From: Armatimonadota bacterium
GTDB taxonomy: Bacteria > Sysuimicrobiota > Sysuimicrobiia > Sysuimicrobiales > Kaftiobacteriaceae
Length of the DNA stretch: 64,000 bases
Direction: 5' to 3'
Assembly: GCA_031459765.1 (NCBI GenBank)
Contig: JAVKHY010000003.1
Span: 124,001 to 188,000 of the forward strand
The position numbers and the translations under genes were made by a program. Below the pieces are notes generated by a model, which worked only from the letters and a program-made list of their open reading frames with translations, ran no database searches and was not told the origin of the DNA. Of this stretch, positions 50,810 through 53,904 are shown piece by piece. The stretch's first letter is position 1; the number at the start of each line of letters is the position of its first letter.

Positions 50810-51337
50810 GTGCGCCGGTGGCGGGTTGCGGGGCTGCTGGTCGTCTTGCTGGCCGTGGGGCCGGTCCCTTCGCATCTTCCGTCGCCTGCGCTCGCCTCCG
50901 GCGGGCCGGCCGCTGCGGTCGTCAGCCTGCCCCACCGCGTTCCCGCCGCGATCGCCAGAGAAGATCTCGAACAGGCCGCCCTGCGGCTGCTCAATGCCGA
51001 GCGGGCCCTTGCCGGCCTGTCCTCCCTTGTCCCGGACGCCGGCATCCGAACCGCCGCGCGCCGGCACGGCAGGGAACTCTTTGCCTCCGGGGTCCTCTCC
51101 CACCGGTCGCGGGACGGACGGTGGCCCGCTCAGCGCCTCAGAGCCCTGGGAATCCGGACCACCGTCGTCGGGGAAAACCTGGCCTACGCCGCCGACGTCG
51201 CCGAGGCACACCGGATGCTCATGGCGAGCACCGACCACCGCCGCAACATTCTCTCCGCCCGGTACCGCAGGGTCGGCCTGGCCGTGCTGGACGGCGGCAC
51301 CTTCGGCATCGTCGTCGTGCAGGACTTCTCGGACTGA
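50810..51337 (+). CDS. Secreted CAP/SCP-domain protein (YkwD-like)
   Basis: This 175-residue protein starts at GTG 50810 after CGGAGGAG. It has a signal peptide (about residues 1-30, ending PALASG) and a CAP domain: LRLLNAERALAGLSSLV, AARRHGRELFASGVLSHRS, GENLAYAADVAEAHRMLMAS and HRRNILSARYRRVGLAV. The CAP cleft histidines (HGREL and DHRRN) and Glu (GEN) are conserved. Bacterial YkwD-like proteins are surface or spore associated. It is divergent from the TRAP genes and lies just upstream of the sortase operon, so it may be co-functional. Confidence 0.85.
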   Translation: MRRWRVAGLLVVLLAVGPVPSHLPSPALASGGPAAAVVSLPHRVPAAIAREDLEQAALRLLNAERALAGLSSLVPDAGIRTAARRHGRELFASGVLSHRSRDGRWPAQRLRALGIRTTVVGENLAYAADVAEAHRMLMASTDHRRNILSARYRRVGLAVLDGGTFGIVVVQDFSD

Positions 51338-51449: not shown

Positions 51450-51477
51450 TTGTGGCCTCGGCCGCGGCGGCTATAAT
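51450..51477 (+). promoter_or_regulatory. Promoter of the LPFTG-sortase-PqqD-HprK operon
   Basis: TTGTGG (51450-51455), a 16-nt spacer and a perfect TATAAT (51472-51477). The predicted start of transcription is about 25 nt before GTG 51511, whose AAGGAG box is at 51496-51501. This is the clearest housekeeping promoter in the window. Confidence 0.7.
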
Positions 51478-51510
51478 GAGGGCGCTTCCGCTGTCCAAGG
51501 AGTTCCGCTC

Positions 51511-52158
51511 GTGGCCGACGAGTTCCGCGGGCTGCAGGTCGCCCAGATCCCCCTGGCGCACGGCGTCGAGACGCTCTCCCCGGTGACCCCTCCCTCCGGC
51601 GGTGGCGCCCCAGGCCCCGCAGGCCTTCTGCCCCTCATCCCCCTTATCCCGCTGTTGCTCGCGCTGTTCGGAGCGCCGCCTCCCCCGGCGGTGGAGGCGC
51701 CGCCGGTGCCGCCGGCCGCCCAACTGCCTGCGCCAGCGACAGAGCCGGCACCGTCGTTGCCGCCCGCTCCTGCACCTCAGGTCCCTCCCGCGCCTGCTCC
51801 CGCTCCGCCGCCGGCGGTCACACCCGGAGTTCCCGCCCCCGGCGCGGCACCGGGTGCTGCGCCGGGGGCGCCGTCGCCTATTCCCGGGGTCGTCGGAGCG
51901 CCCGCACCGGAGGAGCGTCCCGAAATTCCCGCCGCCCCCTCCGGGGTAGAGGGTGCCCCGCGCGCCGCGGTGCCGGAGGCGCCGCGGCCGTCCCCGGGTC
52001 CGGCCGCGGCGGAGGGACCGCCCGGAGGAGCGGCGCTCCCGTTCACCGGCGAACCGTTGTGGATGTGGCCCGCCATCGGAGTGTTCCTGCTGGGCGCAGG
52101 ACTGATGCTGCGCCGCTACGCCGGAATCCGCGGGCGGGTGAAGCCGCCGCGGGAGTGA
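51511..52158 (+). CDS. Pro/Ala-rich protein with LPFTG sorting signal
   Basis: This 215-residue protein begins with about 35 residues (LQVAQIPLAHGVETLSPV) without a normal signal peptide. A hydrophobic stretch follows (LLPLIPLIPLLLALFG, about residues 40-56), then a long Pro/Ala/Gly-rich region (about 57-170). The C-terminus is a textbook sorting signal: LPFTG (about 176-180), a hydrophobic helix (LWMWPAIGVFLLGAGLML) and a basic tail (RRYAGIRGRVKPPRE). The sortase that would cleave it is the next gene, overlapping by 4 bp. AAGGAG lies 9 nt before GTG 51511. The Pro-rich part would act as a stalk through the cell wall. Confidence 0.75.
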   Translation: MADEFRGLQVAQIPLAHGVETLSPVTPPSGGGAPGPAGLLPLIPLIPLLLALFGAPPPPAVEAPPVPPAAQLPAPATEPAPSLPPAPAPQVPPAPAPAPPPAVTPGVPAPGAAPGAAPGAPSPIPGVVGAPAPEERPEIPAAPSGVEGAPRAAVPEAPRPSPGPAAAEGPPGGAALPFTGEPLWMWPAIGVFLLGAGLMLRRYAGIRGRVKPPRE

Positions 52159-52799
52159 CTCGACCCCGGCTCCTGGGAACCCTCTCGGCCGTCCTCGTCG
52201 CCGCGGGCATCGGGTGCATCGCCGTGCCGCTGGTATGGAGCCTTCATACCGCCAGAAGTGTTGCGCCTGCTCAGGCCGAGGCGCTCGCGGCGTGGGAGGA
52301 CGTTGTCCGGGAGGGGTTGGCGGCGGAAGGTGAGACGTCTCATCCGGCTGCCGCCGCCTCCGGCCTGAGGGAGACATCCCGGGCCGCGCCGCTGTGGCTC
52401 TCCATCCCCCGGCTCCGACTGACCCGCCTCATCCCCGAGGGGGCGTCTGCGGGGCACCTGCGGCGGTTCGGCGCCGGGCGGATCAGCTGGACGTCCCTGC
52501 CCGACGGACCCGGCATCGTAGGCATCGCCGGACACCGCACCACCTACGGGGCGCCGTTCTTCCGCCTGGGAGTTCTGCGAACGGGCGACCGCATCGTCCT
52601 GGCCTACCGCGGGCGTACCTACGAATACACGGTCACGCAGCGACGGATCGTCCGGCCCGACGAGGTCGATGTGCTTCGGTCCGCCACCGGCGAGCGCATG
52701 GTCGCCCTGGTCACCTGCACCCCGTTCTACAGCGCGAAGTATCGCCTGGTCGTCTTCGCCAGGCTGCAGGCCGTGTCTTTTTCGCCGCTGCCTCCGTGA
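52155..52799 (+). CDS. Sortase (class C/D-like transpeptidase)
   Basis: The 214-residue product has an N-terminal signal anchor (about residues 8-28) and a sortase domain (about 90-210). The catalytic triad is visible: His in GIAGHRTTYGAPFF (about 128), Cys in MVALVTCTPFYSAKY (about 192) and Arg in YRLVVFARL. The TCTP sequence resembles class C/D enzymes. It is expected to cleave LPxTG between Thr and Gly and attach the upstream LPFTG protein to the wall or another acceptor. Stop/start overlaps (4 bp) link it to the genes on both sides. Confidence 0.9.
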   Translation: MTRPRLLGTLSAVLVAAGIGCIAVPLVWSLHTARSVAPAQAEALAAWEDVVREGLAAEGETSHPAAAASGLRETSRAAPLWLSIPRLRLTRLIPEGASAGHLRRFGAGRISWTSLPDGPGIVGIAGHRTTYGAPFFRLGVLRTGDRIVLAYRGRTYEYTVTQRRIVRPDEVDVLRSATGERMVALVTCTPFYSAKYRLVVFARLQAVSFSPLPP

Positions 52800-53053
52800 C
52801 GCCGCGATTCCTGGCCGCAGACCTCGACGGTCGGCTCATCGTCCTCGACCTCCGCCGGGCCCGGGTCGTGCTGTTCGACCGGCGCTCCGCAGACGTCTGG
52901 CGGGCCGCTGAGGGGCTTACCGCTGAGGAGATCACCGCATTGGTCCGCGCACCGTCCCCGGTCGTCGACGCCGCACTGACCGAACTGGCGACGGCGGAGC
53001 TGGTCACGGCGACAGACGGACGGTGGAGCCGGGTGATGGTGAGATGGGTCTAG
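52796..53053 (+). CDS. PqqD-like (RRE-fold) small protein
   Basis: This 85-residue protein fits the PqqD/RiPP-recognition-element pattern: LDGRLIVLDLRRARVVLFDRRSADVWRAAEGLTAEEI followed by VVDAALTELATAELV. PqqD-type proteins bind leader sequences of peptides or proteins that other enzymes then modify. GTG 52796 overlaps the sortase stop by 4 bp and the following HprK-like gene overlaps its end by 10 bp, so expression is coupled. Pairing PqqD with HprK-like kinases is known in lasso-peptide clusters, but no other lasso genes are here. Confidence 0.75.
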   Translation: MTPRFLAADLDGRLIVLDLRRARVVLFDRRSADVWRAAEGLTAEEITALVRAPSPVVDAALTELATAELVTATDGRWSRVMVRWV

Positions 53054-53904
53054 CCTCCGAGAGCGGTGGGACGACGCTCACCCTGGGGCACTGGCGTGTT
53101 GCGCTCGTCGGCCCGCCGGCGGTGGTCCGCCCCCTCGCCGCGGTGCTCTCGAGTGTGGCGGTGCCGGAACGGGAGATGCCGTCGCTGGGCGTGGTCATTG
53201 CCCGGGACCGCCGCGCCCTGGGCACGGTCGGCGTCATCGAGGCCTGGCAGGTGATCCTTCCCACCCGTGGATGGCTGCCGCTCCTGGTCGGGCACGTCGT
53301 CGGCGCCGCCACGTCCGCGCTGCGCGAGCTTCTCTTCGTCCACGCCGCCGCGGTGGAGTTTGGCGGACGCGGCTACCTGCTCGTCGGACCTCCGGGGGCG
53401 GGGAAGACGGCCATAACCGCCCTGCTCGTGGGCCGCGGCGCCGGGTACCTGTCGGACGAAGTGGCCCTGCTGGATCCGGGCACAGGGCTGGTGCATCCCT
53501 TAACCCTCCCGCTGGCCGTCAAACCACCGACGGCCAGAGCGGTCGACGTCTTCCCTCCGGCACGCGAGGTGGCGTCAGAGGGCGGGGTGCGGTACCTGCT
53601 CCCCTCGCGTGTGGCTTCCGGCCCCGTGCCGCTGGAGGCGGTGCTGCTGCTGGATCCGAGGTCAACACACGGGCCCGCCGTCCTTGAGCGGGCGGAGACG
53701 CTGCTCGCGTTGAGCCGACACCCCTCCAGCTTCCGCTACGAATCCCGCCTGGCGGCGGCCTTTACCGGGTTCGTCGGTCTCCTGCGCCGGGCGCGCTGCC
53801 TGAGGATCGGCTCGGCCTCTCCCGCCCGGGCCGCCGCCCTGGTCGCCGCCCTGGGGGAAGTCGGTGCCGTGGACGGAGCGGCGCGCCCCGTGGGGGACGG
53901 CTGA
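53044..53904 (+). CDS. HprK-like P-loop kinase paired with PqqD
   Basis: This 286-residue protein has HAAAVEFGGRGYLLVGPPGAGKT, in which the P-loop (GPPGAGKT, about residue 122) follows the HprK-type strand, and GRGAGYLSDEVALLDPG with an acidic pair. The fold matches the C-terminal part of HPr kinase but the HprK signature is not evident. It may phosphorylate a peptide or protein recognised by the adjacent PqqD-like subunit. ATG 53044 was chosen. It ends the four-gene sortase operon; the next gene starts 87 bp later with its own ribosome-binding site. Confidence 0.72.
   Translation: MGLASESGGTTLTLGHWRVALVGPPAVVRPLAAVLSSVAVPEREMPSLGVVIARDRRALGTVGVIEAWQVILPTRGWLPLLVGHVVGAATSALRELLFVHAAAVEFGGRGYLLVGPPGAGKTAITALLVGRGAGYLSDEVALLDPGTGLVHPLTLPLAVKPPTARAVDVFPPAREVASEGGVRYLLPSRVASGPVPLEAVLLLDPRSTHGPAVLERAETLLALSRHPSSFRYESRLAAAFTGFVGLLRRARCLRIGSASPARAAALVAALGEVGAVDGAARPVGDG

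Follow-up and report, generated by a model that had tools for sequence, protein, structure and literature searches.

Modification guided by a leader has been described for small secreted peptides and for cofactors, sortases are known for wall proteins, and HprK-related kinases have been linked with exosortase systems. The kinases studied in lasso-peptide biosynthesis phosphorylate a Ser at the C-terminus of the precursor, and the phosphate is then extended with hexoses by a nucleotidyltransferase (PMC8498205). Lasso-peptide-type clusters with a kinase occur in the phylum to which the DNA analyzed here belongs, at L096:1077-7802 (precursor MRYEKPQVADFGLIQDHTF...) and at L099:2254-2403 (precursor MKRTYESPRLVVYGHIADNTF...). 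L096 carries, in one run, genes for a nucleotidyltransferase, an ABC ATPase, a permease, a PqqD-like protein, a precursor with a YEKPQVADFG leader, a cyclase, an HprK-like kinase and a protease, the roles of the cyclase and the protease being read from their sequences. Compared with these partners, the sortase unit that we describe in a 64,000-nucleotide stretch of an Armatimonadota genome (the window) is, in the fuller form found in relatives, the lasso accessory set minus the cyclase and the protease. Genes that normally serve to tailor small antibiotic-like peptides are here joined, in an uncultured lineage, to a sortase and a single wall-anchored protein. Our literature search, which was partial in its coverage, found nothing on units joining sortase/LPxTG with PqqD-HprK.

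The unit consists of four plus-strand open reading frames that overlap head to tail (-4, -4 and -10) and encode an LPFTG protein, a sortase, a PqqD-like protein and an HprK-like kinase, in that order (Table 1). This order, proposed in an earlier sequence-only reading, is real and complete, and the secreted CAP protein that the same reading placed just upstream is encoded directly before the LPxTG gene. The consensus TATAAT promoter that it also proposed held only in part: the exact -10 box is present, but a scan upstream of the LPxTG gene found no sigma-70 hexamer pair and no -35 partner for the box, which is absent from most relatives. The strong ribosome site (AAGGAG, 8 nt away) supports GTG 51511 as the start of the LPxTG gene. 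For the kinase, ATG 53044 is more likely to be the start than GTG 53023; translation from this ATG overlaps the PqqD stop by 10 nt, as it does in several relatives.

Table 1. Features of the sortase-PqqD-kinase unit and its surroundings, in window positions.
Feature	Position	Strand	Basis
CAP/YkwD-like secreted protein	50810..51337	+	Pfam CAP E 6.7e-11; conserved neighbour of the system
Exact -10 box TATAAT upstream of LPxTG start	51472..51477	+	read directly
Shine-Dalgarno AAGGAG for LPxTG gene	51497..51502	+	read directly; 8 nt before GTG
LPFTG protein, 215 aa, GTG start	51511..52158	+	orthologues at all 11 loci
N-terminal leader-like motif, residues 6-24 (RGLQVAQIPLAHGVETLSP)	51526..51582	+	conserved across homologues
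N-terminal hydrophobic segment, residues 37-55	51619..51675	+	Kyte-Doolittle 2.21 over 19 residues
C-terminal sorting signal: LPFTG + hydrophobic segment + RR, residues 176-204	52036..52122	+	conserved in 11 genomes
Sortase	52155..52799	+	Pfam Sortase E 3e-29; nearest NCBIfam model is class E
PqqD/RRE-like protein, 85 aa	52796..53053	+	predicted fold and sequence/profile matches
HprK-like kinase, 286 aa	53044..53904	+	P-loop GPPGAGKT, HAA and SDE motifs

The Pfam match confirmed the second gene as a sortase gene, the only one of its genome. Its product scored 100 bits against the class E model NF033747, below the cut-off of 160, and His127, Cys188 and Arg197 are invariant in 11 of 11 sortases. 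By contrast with the unit, a further sortase of G030 has no PqqD or HprK beside it, and the LPFNG protein encoded behind it (L119:4597-5355) carries a signal peptide of the ordinary kind. The PqqD-like nature of the third gene product was borne out by family, profile and structure comparisons. Alone, the window protein has no Pfam PqqD match; nine of the 11 family members match (best E 1.5e-6), and profile comparison of the family with lasso-type PqqDs of the phylum gave 97.5% probability. The model (pLDDT 96.9) has the three strands and three helices of the winged fold of a RiPP recognition element (RRE), plus a hairpin. Its top fold matches in the PDB were TbiB1 with the TbiA leader peptide, then the sactipeptide enzyme 5WHY (E 2.6e-3, modest), and TbiB1, a lasso B1 protein, was also matched by sequence (E 6e-5). 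WD-40 entries that scored above TbiB1 in the sequence search were rejected as repeated weak matches in propeller proteins. Beyond the region aligned to lasso PqqDs, members of this PqqD group carry an additional C-terminal hairpin in which two Trp (77 and 84) are near-invariant. The fourth gene product, read as HprK-like, likewise proved to be so: its model (pLDDT 90.7) matches PEP carboxykinase and HprK/P, the expected superfamily, and the P-loop, His100 and Asp138 are invariant in 11 of 11 kinases. All 11 kinases match TIGR04352 (HprK-related kinase A), the window member at 63.6 bits against a cut-off of 200, a score reached by none of the 386 genomes searched.

The LPxTG protein of the window is Pro-rich, with LPFTG near the C-terminus, hydrophobic segments at about residues 37-55 and 182-200, and an RR tail. 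Inspection by eye and hydropathy agreed with the earlier description of a substrate without an ordinary signal peptide: some 35 or more residues, including a Pro-/Gly-rich linker, precede the first hydrophobic segment, which is found in all LPxTG homologues. This segment is followed by Pro (…A-P, …G-A-P), and a Pro just after a hydrophobic segment would disfavour signal peptidase cleavage. At residues ~6-24, the aligned LPxTG proteins, which range from 169 to 218 aa across loci, share the motif (R)G-[VI]-x-[VI]-x-x-[IL]-x-[LF]-x-x-G-x-V-…-S-P. Mean pairwise identity is 0.56 in this motif, 0.35 in the Pro-rich middle and 0.53 in the sorting signal; the N-terminus is conserved across genomes about as well as the sorting signal. 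Ser23, in the S-P pair, is the sole near-invariant hydroxyl residue. In G017 and G038, a tandem paralogue of ~100 residues just upstream has the same motif, Gly/Pro linker and hydrophobic segment and no LPxTG, showing that the motif is not part of the sorting signal and has a role apart from sorting. A search with the sorting signal returned one strong match per genome and nothing further below E 0.08, so the sortase and its substrate look dedicated to each other. Similarly, the LPxTG protein is the only strong match to the N-terminal motif in each genome, the tandem paralogue aside, with one full-length match each. In three f5 genomes the sorting motif is LPFGG or LPYGG, with Gly for Thr (L016:9016-9660, L018:8796-9323, L019:8505-9014). 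Short tandem proteins with the N-terminal motif, one hydrophobic segment, a GPLEVPP tail and no LPxTG are encoded at L019:9174-9494 and by a matching ORF in L121.

The order LPxTG–sortase–PqqD–HprK, with genes overlapping or closely spaced, is present in 11 of the 43 genomes of the phylum, that of the window included; with recurrence in 11 species, we rejected a chance pairing of the four genes. The whole arrangement was absent from every sampled genome outside the phylum; the relatives sampled come from one phylum of uncultured genomes. Genes outside the window were called with a simple script, and alignment was used to fix some of the starts, among them the non-standard start codons of L018, L019 and L020. 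A sortase was found in 13 of 61 genomes, counting the window's own, and ten of the other sortases have PqqD and kinase homologues directly behind them and an LPxTG gene in front. The kinase clade is sharply bounded, with 12 genomes above 330 bits and everything else in 386 genomes at or below 64 bits. Among the 43 genomes, sortase and kinase occur together in 11, the kinase only in one (G040), a sortase only in two and neither in 29 (Fisher's exact p = 1.5e-7, with genomes counted regardless of shared ancestry). In G040 the kinase gene sits at the end of one contig, and a second contig has the ABC genes, CAP and an N-terminal motif at its end, suggesting that an assembly gap falls within the operon. 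Rather than PqqD-HprK always forming a separate unit, this kinase clade is without a sortase in no fully assembled locus. The same well-supported pairs and triples appear whether the tree is built from sortase, PqqD or kinase, and in the concatenated tree the window copy groups with G017 and G038. Neither condition that the earlier reading named as refuting it, a lack of recurrence or a constantly separate PqqD-HprK unit, was found to hold, and linkage of the four genes is well supported.

The relatives carry a larger unit. An ABC ATPase is encoded at 10 other loci and an ABC-2 permease at nine, usually divergently; a PF14907-type nucleotidyltransferase is present at seven other loci and in G040, and as a contig-edge fragment in G037. 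CAP orthologues lie near most other loci, and CAP matches above 100 bits were found only in genomes with a sortase or this kinase. Since the relatives carry these additional genes, the window holds a reduced form. In its genome we found no nucleotidyltransferase, and only remote permeases in place of an orthologous ABC-2 permease; the layout looks as if the ABC/nucleotidyltransferase block had been deleted. In the sister species G001, where the operon is absent, a truncated CAP gene (L152:3404-3646) lies beside genes that are downstream of the operon in the window, which suggests joint loss of CAP and operon, G001 being a draft assembly.

The lasso enzymes said to be missing were indeed not found: neither an Asn-synthetase-like cyclase C nor a protease B2 is among the translated neighbours in the window and at six other loci. 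The Tyr of the lasso leader YxxPxL, which the L096 and L099 precursors have in this form or a close variant, is absent from the LPxTG N-terminal motif; a Pro six positions before Gly is common to the lasso leader and one LPxTG subgroup, a weak resemblance. The phylum uses the PqqD-HprK pair in a second setting other than lasso clusters: at L094:5300-7037 and L095:1414-2845, the pair immediately follows a small exported protein whose N-terminus reads TRRALIRxGWIIPAVL and whose body is rich in Ser, Thr and Gly, and neither locus showed lasso enzymes or a sortase. Outside the phylum, L137:4274-7817 holds a PqqD-HprK-nucleotidyltransferase cassette beside a small RRRFLKTG protein, with polysaccharide-export-like genes in the locus. 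No exosortase was found in G090, whose PqqD-HprK locus looked like an exosortase system, and no sortase lies near any of the 14 remote HprK-like loci from outside the phylum.

We propose, giving it an even chance, a dedicated sortase pathway in which PqqD binds the N-terminal motif of the LPxTG protein as a leader, the HprK-like kinase phosphorylates the protein and the sortase anchors it. The proposal draws on gene linkage, conservation, predicted folds, catalytic residues and the single substrate per genome; from these we infer topology, binding, phosphorylation and its site, and the order of steps. The LPxTG protein would be inserted with its N-terminus probably in the cytoplasm, because a conserved 20-residue motif precedes an apparently uncleaved hydrophobic segment. 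PqqD, by its predicted RRE fold, most likely binds this motif and presents the protein to the kinase, leader recognition being the most likely explanation of the conserved N-terminus. Given this fold and the intact kinase site, binding followed by phosphorylation is plausible. Phosphorylation of the LPxTG protein is itself likely, with the conserved Ser of S-P as a possible site. A C-terminal Ser like that of paeninodin was rejected as the site: the C-terminal residues of the LPxTG proteins vary and include no conserved Ser, so the site must differ if the kinase acts on these proteins. This difference from the studied lasso kinases counts against the proposal, and so does the missing lasso-leader Tyr in the motif. 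In the relatives, capping of the phosphate by the nucleotidyltransferase may follow, similar to what is known from phospho-glycosylated lasso peptides, and the ABC transporter may assist export. Last, the sortase would cut at LP[FY][TG]G and attach the protein outside the membrane. As the nucleotidyltransferase and the orthologous permease are absent from the window's genome, either their steps are not essential there or the pathway is decaying there. A more specific version, in which a surface protein is treated like a RiPP precursor, with an RRE reading a cytosolic leader, the kinase (mostly together with the nucleotidyltransferase) adding a phosphate or phospho-sugar and the sortase anchoring the product, is tentative and on the doubtful side.

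Other readings share part of this evidence. In one, the motif would be an export or insertion signal, PqqD would only chaperone the hydrophobic, Pro-rich precursor so that it stays competent, the kinase would regulate export and the product would be unmodified. The missing normal signal peptide, the mostly divergent ABC-2 genes of the relatives and the motif on a one-segment protein without a sorting signal would all fit; however, the window's genome keeps the motif without an orthologous permease, the active site of the kinase is conserved in every copy, and the usual cargo of ABC-2 transporters is lipids, glycans or drugs, so that we consider this reading rather unlikely. The target of PqqD and the kinase might instead be a different molecule, whether a hidden peptide, the CAP protein or a small precursor encoded elsewhere, with the pair merely co-regulated with the sortase, much as PqqD-HprK pairs elsewhere in the phylum adjoin lasso precursors or small exported proteins. 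We regard this as rather unlikely, given that the overlapping unit leaves no room for a further gene, that each genome offers one strong motif match, the tandem paralogue aside, and that fully assembled loci always pair this kinase clade with a sortase.

That the unit is a decayed lasso-peptide cluster invaded by a sortase gene, with PqqD and the kinase as relics, would account for accessory genes that are the same as in lasso clusters and for the missing cyclase and protease, but it is very improbable for a unit that is intact in 11 species, with conserved catalytic residues and with sortase, PqqD and kinase trees that share well-supported groups.

Our results suggest a surface protein that is recognized and undergoes chemical modification in the cell interior, ahead of its anchoring on the outside. 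If the dedicated sortase pathway is true, anchored surface proteins would be among the targets of RRE-guided chemistry, and PqqD-HprK pairs that stand apart from lasso clusters would gain a defined protein substrate. Under the more tentative RiPP-like reading, a first hydrophobic segment that is left uncleaved could make the product a tether reaching from the cytoplasm to the cell wall, with a phosphorylatable cytosolic end.

Among known systems, the unit resembles the paeninodin and pseudomycoidin lasso clusters in its PqqD/RRE (B1) protein, HprK-like kinase, nucleotidyltransferase, ABC transporter and leader-like substrate N-terminus, but differs from them in having a sortase and no C/B2 at the locus, and in a membrane-anchored LPxTG substrate of 169-218 aa without a conserved C-terminal Ser. 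With HprK-related kinase A it shares a weak but consistent match of all 11 kinases and PqqD next door, although the window kinase stays below the model's cut-off. Like L094 and L095, it has PqqD and kinase directly behind a protein with a charged N-terminus and a hydrophobic segment, whereas those loci have a twin-arginine-like N-terminus, no sortase and no LPxTG signal. Finally, it shares with sortase/LPxTG systems of the class E/D-like kind, with one neighbouring substrate, the His/Cys/Arg residues, the LPxTG motif, hydrophobic segment and positive tail, and the adjacent genes; unlike them, it has a substrate without a signal peptide, a conserved N-terminal motif, some LPYGG or LPFGG motifs and a tie to PqqD and a kinase.
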